Virus record (IMG/VR): IMGVR_UViG_3300042507_007717 | Span: 1 to 26,978 of that record | Source of the DNA: a virus | DNA: 26,978 nt | Strand: one strand, 5' to 3' | Shown: positions 6,301 to 25,927 of the stretch, one piece after another | Layout of the letters: each line of letters begins with the position of its first letter | Position numbering within the stretch: position 1 is the stretch's first letter | Notes under the pieces: generated by a model | Told to the model about the DNA's origin: nothing | The model's input: the letters and a program-made list of their open reading frames with translations, nothing else | Databases searched by the model: none | Program-made: the position numbers and the translations under genes

Positions 6301-7536
6301 TTTTGCTGCTTTGTTTTGATAAGAAGATTCTTCGCCTATCTTGAATATTAATTTAGTATTTTCAGTAATGAATCCAGATAAATCACTGATGAATTGGCGA
6401 TTATAATAATAATCGTATGAATTCACTGAACTATTTGCTCCAAAATTTTGGACATTACCTTTTGTGGATCTATATGTTGTTGGTATTGCAATCACTAAAC
6501 ATCCATAAACTTTATTTGTATATTGATTATCAGTATCAACTGTAGGAACAAGTAGTTTGTAGATTTGATTTTGAGGTATATTTCTACTAAAGTTTTCGAG
6601 TTCAAAAGAAACTGTTTTAAAAACACCTTTACTATCAAAGATAGATTTCGTTGCTACTGCACCGTCATTTAATTCTTTTGGATTGTTTTTATCCGCAATT
6701 TCAACTACGATATATACAGTGTTTTTTGAATTCCAGTTGAATTTTTCTTTGCTCGCTTTTCCTTTCAACTCTTGAATTTTTTTCAATACTTGATTATTAA
6801 AGAACTTCTCTTGATCAGGTGAATCGCCTGAAAGTTCTTTAAGAGAAGTTTCTAGTTTTGACAATAAAGTTTTTGGCAATAAAGTATCGCTGGCGAATAA
6901 ACTTTGATTTGGATCAATATAATGGACTTCTAATTTTGATGCAGAATTTTCAAAATAAATAGGGCCAGAAATAGGCTTAACATTTTTAGTGTTACCTTTT
7001 AATTCCCATCCATTTTTAGAAATACCATCCACTAATATATCGTCTACTATTGGAGAATAATACTCATCTTTAGCATTAGCTACGCCTTGTTTAGTTTGAG
7101 TTGCTAATAATCTTCTCTCAGGTATTTTTGTTGTAAGATTTAGTCCATTTAAAACTACAAAAGGCTTATGAAAATAAGTTTTATAAGAATTATCACTATA
7201 GTATATATCTCCCAATACATTTAATGAGCTTGAAATTTCAAGACTTCCGATAACGTCACTAGCATTAATCGGGAAATATACAGAAGTTTGCTGGATAGGT
7301 GTATTGTCTAAATAAACACCTTGCAGAATACTAGCTTGTTTTCCAAGGGTCTGACCATTTTGATTGACAAGTCCTTCGATTGGTCCATCAGAAATCAAAT
7401 CAACAATCTCAGCAACGCTGTAAGAGTTTAATATTTCATAATTATCAAGCTTGGGTGGCTTGAGAATAGCGGGAGTTGGCTTTGGCTTACTTTTGCCACC
7501 GCCTTGAAATAAATTCTTCTTAATTAAATGCTTCAT
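3313..7536 (-). CDS. tip attachment protein J-like (host specificity)
   Basis: A 1407-residue homologue of the lambda gpJ central tail fibre family. The N-terminus has the typical Gly/Lys/Pro-rich start (QGGGKSKPKPTP) followed by the signature VAEIVDLISDGPIEGLVNQ and the YLDNTPI strand. The mid-region has the family block with WIIYDLLTSKRYGLG, then Tyr-rich segments with RYSCNILF and the dimer-interface-like YLDRFDNY. The C-terminal third is rich in T-G-Y/F repeats and ends in a fibronectin III-like domain (about residues 1290-1390). It forms the tail tip and contacts the receptor. Its ATG overlaps the stop of the I-like gene (ATGA). It is longer than lambda gpJ (about 1130 residues), the extra length lying mainly in inserted beta-rich segments. 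Confidence 0.9.
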   Translation of the reverse strand: MKHLIKKNLFQGGGKSKPKPTPAILKPPKLDNYEILNSYSVAEIVDLISDGPIEGLVNQNGQTLGKQASILQGVYLDNTPIQQTSVYFPINASDVIGSLEISSSLNVLGDIYYSDNSYKTYFHKPFVVLNGLNLTTKIPERRLLATQTKQGVANAKDEYYSPIVDDILVDGISKNGWELKGNTKNVKPISGPIYFENSASKLEVHYIDPNQSLFASDTLLPKTLLSKLETSLKELSGDSPDQEKFFNNQVLKKIQELKGKASKEKFNWNSKNTVYIVVEIADKNNPKELNDGAVATKSIFDSKGVFKTVSFELENFSRNIPQNQIYKLLVPTVDTDNQYTNKVYGCLVIAIPTTYRSTKGNVQNFGANSSVNSYDYYYNRQFISDLSGFITENTKLIFKIGEESSYQNKAAKYNFLNISCELKNGQEYQDPLEYFKNIYVDHDYTTPLSGPFIAGYETRRIDGNWKTNGFGPQNPKLNLSLNEQEGSNDLRAATVGNAQQSYSEWNNDNEYDEDAIAITHTIENPEVSSVFFTLAISNLSDTVAKSTSDQRELGDKVPAIVEIEVEWGKISNGEISNAKTKKYAVIAMVEGQMLIDFGSPDLESIENDYFKAVRDVSNISKSTFDQAVLSKPFILPKLTNQENPSSVKRYIKVKKLSTETNSVLLKKEIALYKVTEIIEQNLSYPFSAIAGIKIDARTFGSVPERTYDCRLKLVNVPMNYYPLSADRSDNRYIKSASQYTSPNLVYDGDWDGQFKMEWTDNPAWIIYDLLTSKRYGLGAYIDESQINKWELYKIGRFCDAVDSNGYFQGVSDGIGGLEPRYSCNILFKDQTKIFDAINIVASLFRGSVFFSNSEIHFLDDRPKEPIALFTNSNVKDGVFNYINNRRDLQFNTVEVVYLDRFDNYQTKIEYVQDEADIRKRGVFKTDINTLGVTSRAMARRIGQHLIYQTIKENQSIEFSAGLDSLLCRPGDLVIVEDEMKTMSTNYGRILEKNIAEKTLRIDNFYDSGSFTGRVTVYTPTGYTTNEELNDIAILNRNRVPYFDVLTGLIEPSDDVLTGRYYFSGYVGGYPTGYPNIGNPFPTQFPLYTGSGYSGHSLFCYYNTGYTGFVFATGLPYQDNDTFDKVITNTGISDITYFDTGVDSTGFRYSSASSTKRTAPSGNVADRIDVPFDSYHGILESEINTINNPQITTFNVTGHDSNYAYGSELFLDQNDININLLQFVGEGSVYRIERKNASDQIYKIISIREQNQNEYSVSASKYDTGKFQEIENHITSDFLPQTYANSVAQAAIGINKLAAPVITLFNTGTFGTTFSLTGTWSGVANATGYTAQIINNDSSDTYRQTSSSLNFGVTGLIYGGRWLLNVQALGNNTTYTSSDIATSGKLILNTPIPSTPYDRAFITNFNVK

Positions 7537-11480: not shown

Positions 11481-11998
11481 TGGCTTATAGAAATAAATAC
11501 GACAAAGATGGTGCTTCATTCGCTCTTGGGGAAAACGCCGAAAACAGTTTCGTTAGCGCTGCTAAAAAAAACGGTATGGAAGTAGTTGTGGCATCTCGCC
11601 AAGATGAGTTCAATCACATCGATTTCCATGTTACTCATACTCATGATCAATTGAAGTTTTCTGTGGAGGTTAAATCTCGAAAGAAAGTCAAGCGTGCGGA
11701 TTCGAGTGTTAACGATGATTTGGTATGGGTGGAATTTAAGAATGTGCGAGGATCTCGCGGTTGGCTTTACGGAGGCGCAGATGCCGTCGCTTTCGAACGA
11801 GAAAACGATTTCGTTATCGTTGATCGAAAACTGTTGACGAGGCTCTGTGAGCGCCTCTGTGACCTCACAAAGCTGAACGTGGATGTTAAGATGCCTCTTT
11901 ACACAGCGTATCAACGTCGTGGACGACAAGATATCGTGTCACTCATCAAGATGACTGACATTTTGACAAACATCAAACATGCACTTTTAAAGAAGTGA
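11480..11998 (+). CDS. PD-(D/E)XK nuclease-like protein
   Basis: The start is placed at ATG 11480 (MAYRNKYDKDG), which overlaps the preceding stop, rather than at the in-frame ATG 12 nt earlier. In the 172-residue product, GENAENSFVSAAKKNG is followed by HIDFHV (Asp at about residue 48) and FSVEVKSRKK (Glu and Lys at about 63-65). This gives the D...(D/E)xK arrangement of PD-(D/E)XK nucleases with the preceding conserved Glu in the first helix. Then come VEFKNVRGSRGWLYGGADAVAFE and a helical C-terminus. Such small phage proteins may act in DNA repair, recombination or restriction-like cleavage; the substrate is unknown. It overlaps the sulfotransferase start by 4 nt. Confidence 0.65.
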   Translation: MAYRNKYDKDGASFALGENAENSFVSAAKKNGMEVVVASRQDEFNHIDFHVTHTHDQLKFSVEVKSRKKVKRADSSVNDDLVWVEFKNVRGSRGWLYGGADAVAFERENDFVIVDRKLLTRLCERLCDLTKLNVDVKMPLYTAYQRRGRQDIVSLIKMTDILTNIKHALLKK

Positions 11999-12660
11999 TT
12001 CCTGAATTAGCGTTTTTCCCTACGCAAAACCAAAAATGGGTGTTGCATCTTATCTTTGTGCGTATTCCTAAAAACGCTAGTTCTTCTATTTACAAGCATT
12101 TAGGAGATTTCAATCTAATCAAAAAACATGAATCATTATTTCGCGCAAATGCGAGCAATCCTCTATATCGTAATTTTTTTGACACGACCCATGCTAAGCC
12201 ATCTGAAATTAAACAACTAATTCCAGTCAACGTTAACAACTATTTTTCTTTTGCAGTGGTAAGAAATCCTTGGGATCGTTTCGTTTCCATGTATTCTTTT
12301 GTTTTGCAAAATGAACTATGGCGATTATTTAATCTACAGTCGCCGCCTTCTTTCAAAGAGTTTTGTTTGATTTGCGAAGAGAGAAAGAATCAAAATGATT
12401 TATACTTTTTCCCAATTCAGCAGCAGCACCTATGGATCTCTGGAGCTTTTGAAGTTCAAAAAATACTTAGGTTCGAAAATCTTGCAGAAGACTTTCGTTC
12501 AATGATTCTCGAAATAAATGCTTCTCATATATCTACAGAATTGCCGCACATAAACTCTTCAGATCACGATAAATACCAAAAATATTACGATAATTATACT
12601 AAAAATCTAGTGTCTTCCCTTTATAATGAAGATATACAAAAATTCAACTACACATTTTAA
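11995..12660 (+). CDS. sulfotransferase family protein
   Basis: GTG start overlapping the previous TGA (GTGA); no better ATG lies upstream. The 221-residue product carries both PAPS-binding elements of the carbohydrate sulfotransferase family: the 5'-phosphosulfate loop RIPKNASSSIYKHL (residues 23-36) and the 3'-phosphate block VVRNPWDRFVSMYSF (87-101, with Arg89 and Ser97). There is no signal peptide or membrane anchor, unlike eukaryotic Golgi relatives, so it would act in the cytoplasm. It would move sulfate from PAPS to a sugar or tyrosine. It lies in one cassette with two glycosyltransferase-like genes and UDP-galactopyranose mutase, which points to glycan decoration. The acceptor is unknown. 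Confidence 0.8.
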   Translation: MIPELAFFPTQNQKWVLHLIFVRIPKNASSSIYKHLGDFNLIKKHESLFRANASNPLYRNFFDTTHAKPSEIKQLIPVNVNNYFSFAVVRNPWDRFVSMYSFVLQNELWRLFNLQSPPSFKEFCLICEERKNQNDLYFFPIQQQHLWISGAFEVQKILRFENLAEDFRSMILEINASHISTELPHINSSDHDKYQKYYDNYTKNLVSSLYNEDIQKFNYTF

Positions 12661-13200: not shown

Positions 13201-13484
13201 CTATTATTAAAGTAGATTCAAATGATTTATTTCGTTATGTAGTAGGCAATACTTTGCGCGATCCTATTGAAGCTTGTATTGATTCAGAGAATCGCTATGA
13301 AGTTTTTGATTCTGGCATTTTTGATCACACTACAAAACAAATTTTAATTCAAGATAGCTCTTTCGTTGATTTTTGCACAGCGGTTTCTGAATTGAAAAGT
13401 ATAGTCGGTCAGCTTTCTACAGAAGAAATTATTTCTCGTTGCAAAGATTTCTCTTCAATTTCTATTAAAATTAATTTGGGGTAA
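13197..13484 (+). CDS. hypothetical protein (95 aa)
   Basis: GTG start overlapping the previous stop. The product MTIIKVDSNDLFRYVVGN is acidic and alpha/beta, with no recognisable motif, signal peptide or membrane segment. The stop overlaps the next ATG (TAATG), so it is embedded in a coupled chain ahead of the glycosyltransferase. It is small enough to be a partner or regulator of a neighbour, but nothing in the sequence shows this. Confidence 0.6.
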   Translation: MTIIKVDSNDLFRYVVGNTLRDPIEACIDSENRYEVFDSGIFDHTTKQILIQDSSFVDFCTAVSELKSIVGQLSTEEIISRCKDFSSISIKINLG

Positions 13485-14293
13485 TGTCGAAGGTCGCGTT
13501 TCTAGCATTAACCTACTCATCTTTCATCAAAAACGAAACGATGAGTAGGTTTTTTGATCCTGCGTTAAAAGATATATACAATCTATATATTCACAATAAA
13601 TATGATCTTCCTCCTAATCATTATTTTTCTGATTTTTGTATTCCGAAAAACAGGATAACAGAGACAGAATGGGGACATTACTCATTGGTTAAGGCTTCTA
13701 TAAATTTAATGGCTGAAGCTTTAAAAGATCCAGATAATGAATATTTTGTTTTAATCAGCGATTCTCACTGCCCTCTCTACGATATAGAGACTACTTGTAA
13801 TTTAATCAAGAACGATTTTGATACAATGTCATTTGCTGAGTGTGTTGCAGAAAAGCATCTTACTCCCAAAAGATTTGAACTTATACAAAATCCAGTTCGT
13901 ATTAAATATTCGCCTTTTAAAATTAAAAATGCTTTGTTTGTATCTCAATGGTTTATCTGCCGAAGAAGTGACGCCTCTTTCTTTCTTTCTAAAGAAAGCA
14001 ATTTGCGCAAATGGTTTAGTACTGATAAAGTTTCATTTGCTGATGAAATGTATTTTCCTCTTGTAGCAAATCATTTTGGTTTGGAATTTCAAATAAAGTC
14101 TAACTGTCATTTTAACTGGAAGTTGAATAGTTCTAAAAAACTAATTGCTTATGGAGCTAAAGCGGAGCCAAAATCCTATGAAAAAATTAATCATAGAATT
14201 ATTGACTCTTTGAGAAATACGAGTAATCTCTTTATTAGGAAAGTTCATCCTCTCACCATTATCGACAACGACTATATTTTCTCTAATGAATGA
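13484..14293 (+). CDS. core-2/I-branching-like glycosyltransferase (GT14)
   Basis: The 269-residue product reads like a bacterial or phage member of the core-2/I-branching (GT14) family. The N-terminal strand VAFLALTY is followed by ETEWGHYSLVKASINLMAEALKDPDNEYFVLISDSHCPLYDIET (about residues 58-101), matching the family's W-G...A.L.LL..A.....Y..LLS....P pattern. The acceptor-side block is SQWFICRRSDA, then FADEMYFPLVANHF with the expected D-E. There is no membrane anchor. It would transfer a sugar, typically GlcNAc or xylose in relatives, to a glycan. Neighbours point to phage-encoded glycan modification. It overlaps the next gene by 8 nt. Confidence 0.7.
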   Translation: MSKVAFLALTYSSFIKNETMSRFFDPALKDIYNLYIHNKYDLPPNHYFSDFCIPKNRITETEWGHYSLVKASINLMAEALKDPDNEYFVLISDSHCPLYDIETTCNLIKNDFDTMSFAECVAEKHLTPKRFELIQNPVRIKYSPFKIKNALFVSQWFICRRSDASFFLSKESNLRKWFSTDKVSFADEMYFPLVANHFGLEFQIKSNCHFNWKLNSSKKLIAYGAKAEPKSYEKINHRIIDSLRNTSNLFIRKVHPLTIIDNDYIFSNE

Positions 14294-14969
14294 TTCTAAA
14301 ATGGAAGTCAGGCGGGTAGATAAAAAAACCTGTGAAATCATAGTATCTCACAAACATTATTCTCGCACTCTCGGTATTTTTTGGGACGGTTTCGGACTGT
14401 ATAAAGATGACGTACTGATCGGTGTTTGCTGCTTCGGCCAACCTTCTCCAGCAATTCAAAAACACGCTTTTAAAAATCGAGACTTTAAGCTGTATGAATT
14501 GACTCGATTGGTTATTGATTCGGGGCATAAAAATGCTGCATCTTTTTTAATTAGTTCTTCAATGAAGATGCTCAAAGAAAAGCAATGCGCGTTGATCAGC
14601 TATGCCGACTCCGCTCATGGTCATAGCGGTATCGTGTATCAATCCACCAATTGGCTATACACAGGCTCTACAGTATCTCATGATTCTCTTTATTTGATTG
14701 ACGGAAAGCCGACTCACCCAATGACAATTCGCGACAAGTTTGGCGTTACTGAAATCTCTAATTGGGCTAAACAAAATAAAATCAGTAAAATCAAACCGTC
14801 TCCCAAGCATCGTTATTTCTTTTTTAAAGGATCAAAGCTTCAAAAGAAAAAAATGCGCGAGTCTCTTTCTTATAAAGTAATCGGTGAGTATCCAAAGTCT
14901 GAAAAAACAACTTATAATAGTGGAGATTTGTCTTGCGCTGAATATTATTCATTATACCATAAATCATGA
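14286..14969 (+). CDS. Mom-like / GNAT DNA-modification candidate
   Basis: The 227-residue protein follows the plan of the phage Mu Mom-like GNAT family. An N-terminal HKHYSRTLG segment precedes a strand pair with DDVLIGVCCFGQPS; then come YELTRLVIDSGHKNAASFLISSSMKML (the acetyl-CoA-type loop and helix) and ALISYADSAHGHSGIVYQSTNWLYTGS (about residues 102-128). The S-Y-A-D...G-H.G..Y.a.NW.Y.G pattern is the most family-specific part. Mom converts adenine to a carbamoylmethyl form that blocks restriction. Whether this homologue modifies phage DNA is inference. An HNH nuclease overlaps its end by 4 nt. Confidence 0.65.
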   Translation: MNDSKMEVRRVDKKTCEIIVSHKHYSRTLGIFWDGFGLYKDDVLIGVCCFGQPSPAIQKHAFKNRDFKLYELTRLVIDSGHKNAASFLISSSMKMLKEKQCALISYADSAHGHSGIVYQSTNWLYTGSTVSHDSLYLIDGKPTHPMTIRDKFGVTEISNWAKQNKISKIKPSPKHRYFFFKGSKLQKKKMRESLSYKVIGEYPKSEKTTYNSGDLSCAEYYSLYHKS

Positions 14970-19002: not shown

Positions 19003-19077
19003 CCTCTCTAAGCTTTAACGGTGAAGCGTCTGTCTGAAGAACAGAATAAGTCGATTCGGGCGCGACAGAGAGGACCA
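19003..19077 (+). tRNA. tRNA-Phe(GAA), CCA encoded
   Basis: Acceptor CCTCTCT/AGAGAGG, anticodon loop CTGAAGA (GAA) on stem TCTGT/ACAGA, discriminator A74 followed by encoded CCA (19075-19077). Position 8 is A rather than T, and the 53:61 pair is an A-G mismatch next to T loop TTCGGGC, so it is slightly divergent. Confidence 0.8.
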
Positions 19078-19082
19078 TATTT

Positions 19083-19146
19083 GGGAAAGACCCGAATACG
19101 CATCAGGGTTTCGGTCGCCTGATGTAAAAGAAAAGACCGAGTATTT
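19083..19146 (+). ncRNA. compact pseudoknot RNA element
   Basis: Between two tRNAs. A small hairpin GGG/CCC (19083-19093) precedes GAATAC (19094-19099), which pairs with GTATTT (19141-19146). Inside, CATCAGG (19101-19107) pairs perfectly with CCTGATG (19118-19124). Its loop segment TCGGTC (19111-19116) pairs perfectly with GACCGA (19135-19140) across an A-rich linker, giving an H-type pseudoknot closed by an outer helix. It is not a tRNA. Function unknown. Confidence 0.5.
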
Positions 19147-19152
19147 TCAAAC

Positions 19153-19227
19153 GGGGATGTATCGGAACGCACTTCTAATGCGTGGCACCGTAAAGGATCA
19201 ATGCAGGTTCGAGTCCTGCCATCCCTG
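19153..19227 (+). tRNA. atypical tRNA-Arg-like (UCU) without D arm
   Basis: Acceptor GGGGATG/CATCCCT, T arm GCAGG-TTCGAGT-CCTGC and anticodon arm ACGCA-CTTCTAA-TGCGT (TCT) are all well formed. Only 7 nt (TATCGGA) stand where the D arm belongs, while the variable region is 19 nt. CGG (19163-19165) can pair with CCG (19088 of the next hundred, 19188-19190) to extend the central helix. The 3' half also encodes, on the other strand, the last codons of the HNH gene. Confidence 0.55.
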
Positions 19228-19719
19228 CTGCCTGCTCAATAAGCCATTGTCAAATTCCCAATGGCAATTTGGACATAATTGAACGATATTGTCTTTGTTA
19301 TTCACTTCCTTAATTAAGCTATCTTCTGTAAAAGAAGCCATCGCTTTAATATGGCACAGTTCAACATGCTTATTATAACCACAAGCAGCACATGGTTTTT
19401 TCGTCAACTCTTTGAACCAGCTTCTCGCTAAACCTCTTATGTGTGCATGAGTTGATGAACTATGAAGCAATTTGTTTCTGTCTCTATACTCTCCTATTGT
19501 AGTCTCTAGTATAGAATCTTTTTTACATTTTAAATACTCTTGATAGTGAGTCTCGCATCGAGAAGATCTATAGTTTCTTACTATGCTTTTGCAGTCTAAA
19601 CATGAACATAATCTAGTTAATTTTCTTTTTGGACTTTTTTTATTATTATATATCGCTGCACAAGTACGGCAGCAAAATTTTGGATTTTTAGTTTCTTCTT
19701 GACAATGTAAGCATTTCAT
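19198..19719 (-). CDS. HNH homing endonuclease
   Basis: I choose the ATG at 19719 (MKCLHCQEETKN) over the upstream TTG because GTGTAA lies exactly 8 nt before it. The 173-residue product has N-terminal zinc-binding pairs (CLHC, CCRTC) and a C-terminal HNH domain: CAACGYNKHVELCHIKAM with DNIVQLCPNCHWEFDNG (His, Asn, His and CxxC intact). The final residues GWQDSNLH are read antisense from the 3' half of the atypical tRNA-Arg, and the stop lies inside that tRNA. On its other side lies an orphan tRNA 3' half. The layout fits a mobile endonuclease that inserted into a tRNA and supplied a replacement end. Confidence 0.85.
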   Translation of the reverse strand: MKCLHCQEETKNPKFCCRTCAAIYNNKKSPKRKLTRLCSCLDCKSIVRNYRSSRCETHYQEYLKCKKDSILETTIGEYRDRNKLLHSSSTHAHIRGLARSWFKELTKKPCAACGYNKHVELCHIKAMASFTEDSLIKEVNNKDNIVQLCPNCHWEFDNGLLSRQQGWQDSNLH

Positions 19720-19733
19720 GTTAGTATTTACAC
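19720..19733 (-). promoter_or_regulatory. GTGTAA-N8-ATG start signal, HNH gene 1
   Basis: GTGTAA (minus strand, 19733-19728) lies exactly 8 nt before the ATG at 19719. Spacing is identical to that at the tail operon and five other genes. Confidence 0.6.
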
Positions 19734-19764
19734 GAATGAATACAACATCGTTCAAAAAAAAATC

Positions 19765-19793
19765 AATAGGGGTTCGATTCCCTTACGACCTAC
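19765..19793 (+). pseudogene. orphan tRNA 3' half
   Basis: T arm AGGGG-TTCGATT-CCCTT (19768-19784) is followed by an acceptor-like ACGACCT and A (19792). No 5' half that would pair with it is found upstream, where the HNH gene lies instead. It also does not pair with the 5' acceptor strand of the atypical tRNA-Arg. Read as the remnant of the insertion target. Confidence 0.65.
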
Positions 19794-19798
19794 TTTTC

Positions 19799-19869: not shown

Positions 19870-20206
19870 CTTTTTTTGTCATGCCATATGCGGCAAGGTC
19901 ACGTATATGAGCGATTGTGTTGACGTTTTACTTGCCATAAAGCAATATACACAACGTAATCCGACGCACGATGGTAATGTCAAGTGGCTTTGAAGATATC
20001 CATCCTCTGTGAGTTTCGGTAGTATGGCAAAGTTTTCAATGAACAGCTGTCTCTCATTTCGGCAGGAGAGTCTCCACAGTATCAAGGTTATGATACAGCG
20101 CTAGTGAAATTCTAGAACAACCGAGCCATTTAAATGGGGGAAGGATCGACATGCACTTAGGAACGTAGCCTAAGATGGTCGCTACGAATCTGGAACCCAC
20201 CAATTT
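19870..20206 (+). other. gene-free 337-bp stretch with RNA structure potential
   Basis: No convincing gene; only ORFs of under 30 codons on the plus strand and an unsupported one on the minus strand. Hand folding gives a possible pseudoknot (GGCAAG 19892/CTTGCC 19931 with TTGTGT 19915/ACACAA 19949). It also gives hairpins CTCTC/GAGAG (20051-20070) and GTATC/GATAC (20079-20096). A long rod at 20132-20206 pairs AAATGGGGG with CCCACCAATTT (two bulged A), then CGACAT with ATGGTCG (one bulge), then CTTAGG with CCTAAG around a 7-nt loop. It may be a structured RNA or degenerate tRNA debris. Confidence 0.35.
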
Positions 20207-20764: not shown

Positions 20765-20792
20765 TTGACTTCCTCGAAAGAGATGTTAGAAT
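20765..20792 (+). promoter_or_regulatory. internal tRNA-array promoter
   Basis: TTGACT (20765-20770), 16 bp, TAGAAT (20787-20792) stands just before tRNA-Asn, so the array has at least one internal host-type start. Confidence 0.55.
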
Positions 20793-20803
20793 GATCTCAT
20801 AAA

Positions 20804-20875
20804 TCTCAGTAACGCACTAGGCGTGCGACCGCTCTGTTAAAGCGTGTGAGCTTGGTTCGAATCCAAGACTGAGAG
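20804..20875 (+). tRNA. tRNA-Asn(GUU)
   Basis: Acceptor TCTCAGT/ACTGAGA with discriminator G, anticodon loop CTGTTAA (GTT), D stem CGCAC/GTGCG with a short loop TAGGC, T loop TTCGAAT. Confidence 0.9.
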
Positions 20876-20891
20876 CTTTTTAAAACAAAAT

Positions 20892-20965
20892 GCTTGGAGG
20901 GGGTCTGTAAGAATGCATATAATGAGGGTCAGCACCTCAAGATTCCACAAAAACTCCAAGCTCCA
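20892..20965 (+). ncRNA. tRNA-like hairpin ending in CCA, no T arm
   Basis: GCTTGGAG (20892-20899) pairs perfectly with CTCCAAGC (20954-20961), followed by T and CCA (20963-20965). Inside, GGGGTCT (20900-20906) pairs with AGATTCC (20940-20946). An apical arm TGAGG-GTCAGCA-CCTCA (20923-20939) looks like an anticodon arm with CAG (Leu). There is no TTCGA T loop and no D arm. It is tRNA-sized, so either a degenerate tRNA-Leu(CAG) or a tRNA-like structure. The next gene starts 9 bp later. Confidence 0.45.
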
Positions 20966-20973
20966 CTTTACAT

Positions 20974-21291
20974 ATGATATCAATAAAAATACTAGAACCT
21001 GATGACATTGTAGAACCTACTGATTGGTGCCGTCCATTACATCTGGAAACAATGAGTGGAGGGCAATCAGACTACTACTCGTTTGAATCAGATTATTCAG
21101 GCATTGCACAAAACAATGTGAAGTGGGTTCGCGTTAGAGATGTATTTGGTCCGTGTTGGTTGGGCAAGAGTGCTAAAGAACTCAACAAATACACTCAGCA
21201 TGAGATTGTTCGTGGTGAAATTCCACAAAAACATCGATTGACAGGACACAAGTCCTTGCATACGTTTTTTACTAATTTAAAAACTTTATAA
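20974..21291 (+). CDS. hypothetical protein (105 aa)
   Basis: A small gene inside the tRNA array, starting at ATG 20974 immediately after a tRNA-like hairpin; no Shine-Dalgarno sequence is visible. The product MISIKILEPDDIVEPTDWCRP has aromatic-rich segments (SDYYSFESDYSG, VKWVRVRDVFGPCWLGKSAKEL) that look like a beta-rich N-terminal part with two cysteines, then a helical basic end. No signal peptide or membrane segment is present. I do not recognise the family. The stop codon lies just before a cloverleaf-like structure. Confidence 0.6.
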   Translation: MISIKILEPDDIVEPTDWCRPLHLETMSGGQSDYYSFESDYSGIAQNNVKWVRVRDVFGPCWLGKSAKELNKYTQHEIVRGEIPQKHRLTGHKSLHTFFTNLKTL

Positions 21292-21293
21292 AC

Positions 21294-21392
21294 ATTCATA
21301 GGTCTGGTCACCCAGATGATATTGAGCATTCGGCTTCGATTACCGTAACCTCAATACGCGAAGAAACGAATTGATCACCGTTCGCCTAGAAT
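21294..21392 (+). ncRNA. cloverleaf-like structured RNA, not a tRNA
   Basis: ATTC-A-TAGG (21294-21302) pairs with CCTAGAAT (21385-21392) with one bulged A. It encloses three arms: TCTGG-TCAC-CCAGA (21303-21316); TATTGAG/CTCAATA (21320-21326/21350-21356) with an inner CGG/CCG; and GCGAA/TTCGC (21358-21362/21381-21385, whose last pair competes with the outer helix). The size and four-way junction recall tRNA, but there is no T loop, no anticodon-sized loop and no CCA. Likely a structured RNA of unknown role. Confidence 0.4.
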
Positions 21393-21400
21393 CATTTTAC

Positions 21401-21472
21401 GGCCCAAAAGCATAGACGGCGATGCACTGGTTTTGTAATCCAGAAAGTAGAGTTCAAGTCTCTATTGGGCCT
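21401..21472 (+). tRNA. tRNA-Thr(UGU)
   Basis: Acceptor GGCCCAA/TTGGGCC with discriminator T, anticodon loop TTTGTAA (TGT), D stem GCAT/ATGC, T arm TAGAG-TTCAAGT-CTCTA. Position 8 is A. Confidence 0.88.
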
Positions 21473-23312: not shown

Positions 23313-23323
23313 GAAGGAGTAAT

Positions 23324-23608
23324 GGCCATGTGGTGAAATGGTAAACACAGCAGACTTATAGAAAATTTGAGTGCCTTATCGGAAACGGTAGGAGTAGAAC
23401 TTGTCAAATTCGGTGAAGGCTTTAAAATGCTAATACCGAGCCAAGCCTAAGAAATTAGGAAGGTGTAGAGACTAGACGGCAAGGATCTAAAGTAGAAATA
23501 CTATGATCAAGGTATAGTCCAGACCACAAACTGTAAAGGTAGTGAAAACTATAGTGGTAAGAAAATCTGCCGCCTTCGGGCTTGTCGGTTCGAGTCCGAC
23601 CATGGCTA
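23324..23608 (+). tRNA. tRNA-Leu(UAA) interrupted by a group I intron
   Basis: Exon 1 is 23324-23357 and exon 2 is 23562-23608. Joined, they give acceptor GGCCATG/CATGGCT, anticodon arm GCAGA-CTTAAAA-TCTGC (TAA), long variable arm GCC-TTCG-GGC, T arm GTCGG-TTCGAGT-CCGAC and discriminator A. This is a canonical class II leucine tRNA. Without removal of the 204-nt insert the anticodon loop cannot form. Confidence 0.92.
23358..23561 (+). ncRNA. group I intron (IC3-like) in tRNA-Leu(UAA)
   Basis: Inserted after U34, the site used by cyanobacterial and plastid tRNA-Leu(UAA) introns, and ending in the conserved G. P1: exon ACTT pairs with intron GAGT (23369-23372) with U-G at the splice site. P2: CTTATCG-GAAA-CGGTAGG. 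Core GAGCCAAGCC, P5 hairpin CCTAA-GAAA-TTAGG (23446-23459), then AAGGTGTAGAGACTAGACGG. P7: GACT (23470-23473) with AGTC (23516-23519). P8: AGTA-GAAA-TACT. P9: TAGT-GAAA-ACTA. No ORF lies inside. The GAGCCAAGCC and GGAAGGTG-AGAGACT-GACGG blocks match my recollection of the Anabaena intron closely. Confidence 0.92.
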
Positions 23609-23614
23609 CTATTT

Positions 23615-25544: not shown

Positions 25545-25920
25545 GGGTCTGTACTGGTTTCGACTTGATTAGTAGTTCATTAACTAGCATGTAGGAGTTG
25601 ATCGGATGGCTCCTTAAAAATCCGATCAAAAAAAACAAACGGCAAAAATAAAATTGTCAGCTTCCGCAAGCCAGTTTTCAGCCGCAAGGCTGTAGCTCTC
25701 GCTGCCTAAGCATTAACGCTCAGAGATACGCTCGCTCTACTCTGAGTTCAAAACGAGCAAAAAACAGTTTCAGTCCTGTCTGATTGAATGGTGGAGGATG
25801 CAAGGAACTACCAAGAACCGAGCGTCCCTAAGAATGATTCTCTTTGATGAATCAATATAAGCATGTTTGAAGGTTAGTGACAATTAGTTGAGGAAATGGG
25901 TTCGATTCCCATCAGATCCA
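25545..25920 (+). ncRNA. ssrA: tmRNA (one-piece)
   Basis: Acceptor GGGTCTG (25545-25551) pairs with CAGATCC (25913-25919), including the G3-U70 pair for AlaRS, with discriminator A. The 5' end has the hallmark CTGGTTTCGAC and the 3' end the T arm ATGGG-TTCGATT-CCCAT. The tag frame runs from GGC (25641) to TAA (25709): 22 residues beginning GKNKIVSFRK and ending AVALAA. A pseudoknot follows: CTCAGAG/CTCTGAG (25719-25746) with GCTCG/CGAGC (25730-25758). It would release stalled ribosomes and tag their products for degradation. Confidence 0.93.
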
Positions 25921-25927
25921 CTATTTC

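Follow-up and report, generated by a model that had tools for sequence, protein, structure and literature searches.

A probable small RNA gene on a cassette within a phage tRNA/tmRNA array

Introduction

Phage tRNA clusters have so far been read almost wholly as suppliers of tRNAs. The cluster of phage T4 holds two small stable RNAs that are not tRNAs, rnaC and rnaD, which the AF158101 annotation places beside a homing endonuclease gene and tRNA genes, and the element described here, which we call e1, resembles them in this setting. The two T4 RNAs measure 139 and 119 nt against the 99 nt of e1, they share no sequence similarity with it (local scores of 9 and 8, inside the range of shuffles), and rnaC ends in a T arm whereas e1 has none in that place. 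To our knowledge, no role has been established for either rnaC or rnaD.

Also comparable are GOLLD and ROOL, two kinds of noncoding RNA that occur in phages and prophages, in many cases close to tRNA islands, and whose function is unknown (PMC12286853). Both are far larger than e1, with many GOLLD RNAs exceeding 800 nt (PMC12286853), and e1 gives no Rfam match that would join it to them. Nearer at hand, e1 is like a tRNA (RF00005) in having a closing helix with three arms and, as a locus, in its position and trailer, but it differs in giving no family match, in its loops of 4, 23 and 18 nt, and in lacking a CCA and a proper T arm. It is like tmRNA (RF00023) in being a non-tRNA RNA of the same operon, but it is without a tRNA-like domain and again without a family match. 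Beyond work on GOLLD/ROOL and reviews of RNase P, we found no literature on such phage tRNA-operon RNAs in a search whose scope took in few subscription papers.

Small stable RNAs of phage tRNA operons are recognized as non-tRNA elements that fill a gene slot in the cluster and give a discrete stable transcript; e1 fills such a slot and is a candidate for this kind. By analogy, it appears to be the same sort of RNA as rnaC and rnaD, the nearest kind known, though unlike them in sequence, and as a probable small RNA gene it would add a new sequence family to a kind that is known but poorly understood. By computation we established the boundaries of the cassette that carries e1, its conservation, its preserved pairs, and the absence of matches to known families.

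Results and discussion

The array and the predicted parts of e1

The sequence analyzed, hereafter the window, is a virus record of 26,978 bases with a tRNA/tmRNA array on its + strand, for which ARAGORN called 21 tRNAs and a tmRNA (25545–25921) and Rfam added two more tRNAs. Missed by both was a probable tRNA-Phe(GAA) at 19003–19076 (+), whose acceptor stem shows two compensatory changes relative to the related array L009. A tail protein resembling lambda gpJ is encoded upstream of the array, while a virion protein within it resembles counterparts of cyanophages and HMO-2011. Among named phages the array has no close kin: a tRNA-containing query from it gave short stretches only, which among the matches listed lay mostly at tRNA genes, and queries with the tmRNA and with elements e3 and e4 (see below) gave no match.

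Our focus is the interval bordered upstream by tRNA-Asn (20804–20876, +) and downstream by tRNA-Thr(UGU) (21401–21472, +). A sigma-70-like promoter match (TTGACT-16-TAGAAT, 20765–20792, +) precedes tRNA-Asn, with a match count at chance level. An earlier note on this DNA had placed in this interval, at 21294–21392 and between a small gene and tRNA-Thr, an RNA with an 8-bp bulged closing helix and three arms forming a four-way junction; our re-analysis returned the same coordinates (+ strand), the same neighbors (the small gene being a 105-aa ORF at 20974–21291, +, without PHROGs or Pfam matches) and, from the MFE fold and from relatives, the same arrangement. The closing helix, P1 (5′ strand 21294–21302, +), pairs 21294–21297 and 21299–21302 with 21385–21392, giving 8 bp around a single bulged A at 21298, and is kept in 3/3 distinct sequences. 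Arm 2 (21303–21316, +) has a 5-bp stem (21303–21307/21312–21316) and a variable 4-nt loop, which reads UCAC in the window and GCAG in the relative L014. Arm 3 (21320–21356, +), found also as an inverted repeat in an inverted-repeat listing, consists of a 7-bp stem (21320–21326/21350–21356), a 4x4 internal loop and an inner CGG/CCG hairpin (21331–21345) whose 9-nt loop holds UUCGAUU. Arm 4 (21359–21384, +) has a 4-bp CGAA/UUCG stem (21359–21362/21381–21384) and an 18-nt loop, and its 5′ strand is ambiguous, with candidate CGAA copies at 21359–21362 and 21367–21370. Arms 2, 3 and 4 thus have stems of 5, 7 and 4 bp. In the window every one of the 24 pairs is of a standard type, and the MFE of its e1 copy is this same junction except at the end of P1, where C21385 pairs with G21358 and not with G21302.

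Relatives of e1 and its cassette layout

Including the window, five IMG/VR viral contigs carry e1, in three distinct sequences: the copies in 3300046028_009991 and 3300044951_002955 are identical to each other and match the window at 98/99 positions (the value for L001), and those in 3300042401_001110 and 3300042445_003528 match it at 94/99. These represent 3/5 of the distinct related arrays examined. The records 3300012667_001143 (L009) and 3300032268_001296 (L025) have related arrays, but neither contains e1 when searched over its full length by DNA comparison and with the model, so the element is dispensable.

Broader searches added only chance matches. Pattern scans of viral contigs gave 2 stretches (both e1), 8 (4 e1 and 4 chance), 17 (4 e1 and 13 chance) and 30 (4 e1 and 26 chance), and a scan of genome contigs gave 2 stretches in Methylophaga MAGs that matched in the pattern region only. 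The 41 non-e1 stretches from the later scans (13 + 26 + 2) scored at most 23 against 99 for a full match, and a tRNA was present at 0/41 of these loci. A blastn search of named phages (E up to 10) picked out 8 records, all matching only in part and over short lengths, and an e1 covariance model found only known copies in 12 sources and, in four whole records, a sole match at the known copy in L001's record.

Comparing the arrays, we found the shared sequence to run from about 9 bases before the closing helix to about 6 after it. The 5′ edge, TTTATAAAC (21285–21293, +), is common to L014 despite a different upstream neighbor, and the 3′ trailer, CATTTT (21393–21398, +), is positioned as are the C-T(n) trailers of adjacent tRNA genes. 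Upstream, the slot that holds the 105-aa ORF in the window and L001 holds e3, an unrelated noncoding block, in L014/L015; downstream, the window has one tRNA-Thr and L001 and L014 have another, the two being different genes with a best local match of 38/55. In L009 and L025, e3 is joined straight to tRNA-Thr where L014 has e1. Hence e1 is a precise cassette, laid out as an RNA gene in a tRNA slot.

Since e1 is not a tRNA (see below) and has moved from phage to phage as one unit with its predicted fold intact, we consider it probably a gene for a small noncoding RNA that is released with the tRNAs and acts in trans; the gene forms a cassette within the tRNA/tmRNA operon of a siphovirus-like, uncultured phage. 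Its transcription, processing, stability and trans action we infer as follows: e1 would be co-transcribed with the neighboring genes of the array, excised at P1 by the nucleases that free the individual tRNAs, and left to persist as a four-way-junction RNA of about 100 nt that may act in trans during infection via its fold and loops. Judged from sequence comparison, the cassette layout, the precise edges, the 24 preserved pairs and the 98/99 identity to L001 count for an RNA gene, the adjacent ORF being less conserved at third codon positions (16 such differences in 106 codons between window and L001), and the compensatory changes of e2, e3 and e7 in the same arrays were counted for it as well. 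The high identity could partly come from recent exchange instead of selection.

It is rather unlikely that e1 instead serves in cis, as a folded spacer between the upstream transcript and tRNA-Thr that insulates them or aids their processing and is jobless once cut. Such a role would fit the tRNA-Thr(UGU) found directly after e1 in all three distinct sequences and the T-run trailer like those of tRNA genes, but it is weakened because L009 and L025 have tRNA-Thr in the same place without e1. Moreover, the tRNA-Thr genes that follow e1 are of two different kinds, the upstream neighbor changes too, and a plain spacer would need no conservation at 98/99.

Testing the predicted fold

Because the 24 pairs had been drawn from the window sequence alone, the relatives provide a fair test of the fold. 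All 24 are standard in 3/3 distinct sequences, and the variable sites (21308, 21311, 21330, 21358, 21369 and 21378) are unpaired in 6/6 cases, for which the chance is 0.016 given 51 unpaired positions among 99. Counting the inner MFE variants instead, L014 breaks the outermost arm-4 pair, 21358–21385, while 21369–21378, a pair inside arm 4 in the L001 MFE, is absent from the window and L014. By comparison and inspection of the three closely related sequences, tertiary contacts included, we saw zero compensatory changes. Lack of conservation of the pairs had been named in the earlier note as refuting the fold; on this test the outcome favors the structure, but without compensatory changes. In thermodynamic folding, also named there, the MFE of the window copy of e1 is the junction, but the L014 copy folded alone prefers another structure. 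Given about 10 natural flanking bases, L014 again has an MFE with P1 and arms 2 and 3, its arm 4 being shifted. Arm 4 is weak in itself (mean pair probability 0.49). Given full pair conservation, no compensatory change and the refolding of L014, the four-way-junction fold is likely, not proven.

Folding energy is ordinary for the composition of e1, at -21.6 against -18.0 +/- 2.7 for shuffles (z = -1.32), with 19/200 shuffles folding as well and 165/1000 as good in a second set. Its junction topology is rarer among shuffles than its energy, as 13/1000 dinucleotide shuffles had an MFE in which three or more arms meet in a junction closed by a terminal helix of 7 or more pairs. An energy inside the shuffled range and the lack of compensatory changes would both suit a coincidental fold in a conserved DNA spacer or recombination tract that has no RNA role. 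We regard this as quite unlikely, given that a junction drawn from one sequence predicted the variable positions in the others and that the edges of the module fall at the closing helix plus short flanks.

Identity of e1 and its relation to tRNA

The tRNA covariance model (RF00005) gave no match to e1 at E up to 10, whether in a permissive 521-nt search or in an 8301-nt search, ARAGORN called no tRNA there, and no Rfam 15 family exceeded threshold at e1 in the window or in the e1-bearing relatives L014 and L015. Together with the exact cassette edges and the pairs conserved throughout the relatives, these results agree with the earlier view of e1 as a structured RNA of a non-tRNA type. That view had also included the absence of an anticodon-sized loop and of a CCA, both of which the loop sizes and the CATTTT trailer bear out, and the absence of a T loop, which needs qualifying: e1 has no proper T arm, but a T-loop-like UUCGAUU is present in the inner hairpin of arm 3. 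This hairpin has the only UUCGA of e1, none lying in a T arm beside the acceptor 3′ strand, and, as read from the sequence, the string sits in its 9-nt loop with a C/A mismatch at the closing-pair position.

Within the trans-acting reading, e1 may be a decoy or sponge that titrates a tRNA-directed nuclease or some RNA-binding protein, one possibility among several. We consider improbable the specific form in which a tRNA-shaped e1 soaks up a host tRNA-targeting defense nuclease or a tRNA-binding factor: the four-way junction and the UUCGAUU loop string within a tRNA operon would accord with it, as would loops that vary on constant stems, but the arm sizes are not tRNA-like and there is no anticodon-like loop, CCA or tRNA-model match. 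That e1 is a decayed tRNA retaining part of its fold, as the earlier note had also proposed, would suit its place in a tRNA array, its cloverleaf-like topology and the UUCGAUU string, but is highly improbable and contradicted by the missing tRNA-family match at E up to 10 and by conservation rather than decay (98/99 and 94/99), with the string in the middle arm instead of the last, a length of 99 nt, and a separate tRNA-Thr in each of the three e1-bearing arrays.

Other candidate identities were considered. External guides for RNase P are defined by a 3′ RCCA and an acceptor/T-like stack formed with their target; e1, for which such a guide had been proposed, has the trailer CATTTT and neither an RCCA end nor an acceptor/T stack, so that a guide is not supported. 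A match of GATCACC in arm 4 to the 3′ end of 16S rRNA was rejected, as L014 breaks it. A short ORF within e1 (21316–21348, 10 aa) has a synonymous change as its sole difference, but it was rejected because it is very short and, on inspection only, has no evident ribosome site. Compared with e2, e3, e4 and T4 rnaC/rnaD, e1 showed no similarity above shuffles.

Other structured RNAs of the arrays

The same tRNA-Asn to tRNA-Thr interval holds e2 (20892–20966, +), a non-tRNA structured RNA with an 8-bp closing helix (GCUUGGAG/CUCCAAGC) and a UCCA end; five distinct arrays conserve it, and their 5 sequences show 2 compensatory pairs. A pattern scan gave 7 stretches, of which 5 were true e2 and 2 were chance (L013 and L016, with no tRNA there). 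Absent from the window is e3, a noncoding block of about 231 nt (L009:5053–5285, L014:2820–3047, L025:12020–12262, - strand) with 7 compensatory pairs in three sequences. Between e2 and e3 in L025 lies e4 (12266–12381, - strand), a single copy seen in that array only, with an 8-bp closing helix (GTTTCTCG/CGAGAAAC) followed by TCCA. Elsewhere in the window, e7 (about 20130–20201, +) is a tRNA-sized non-tRNA candidate with a CCA end and 6 compensatory pairs in three sequences, and e6 (about 19078–19150, +) is a block of two hairpins after tRNA-Phe, the first of which changes in sequence and keeps its pairing in relatives. The predicted fold of e6 has 4 pairs with compensatory changes, 2 of which are distant and may not be real. 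None of e2, e3, e4, e6 and e7 matched an Rfam family.

Judging from these candidates, the operon seems to be rich in structured RNAs other than tRNAs, several of which would be exchanged in the interval from tRNA-Asn to tRNA-Thr. A bolder reading, which we think unlikely, is that the operon, and above all this interval, stores unrelated small structured RNAs for exchange (e1–e4, with e6 and e7 elsewhere in the array), serving as RNA-based host-takeover or counter-defense modules that phages trade as tRNA-sized cassettes. If e1 and its neighbors are expressed, tRNA clusters would, besides tRNAs, encode small structured RNAs in varying sets, overlooked by tRNA finders and by Rfam. Comparing the arrays could then help to work out what the long-known rnaC and rnaD of T4 do, and would supply defined candidates for infection tests.

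Some further features of the record were noted in passing. In e6, a GGTC loop and a GACC may form a conserved pseudoknot. Of the tRNA-Arg(UCU) of L001 (3348–3420), the window has only the 3′ part (19761–19797), which, within 19151–19797, is split from the upstream block by an insertion with a minus-strand HNH gene and another tRNA-like match at 19153–19227. The tRNA-Leu(UAA) gene (23320–23610, +) contains a group I intron (Rfam match at 23348–23543) that its L001 copy (7260–7342) does not have. Farther upstream, a gene for a Mom-like DNA modification protein (14286–14969, +) lies near genes for a Branch-family glycosyltransferase (13484–14293) and a galactose-3-O-sulfotransferase-like protein (11995–12660, +).
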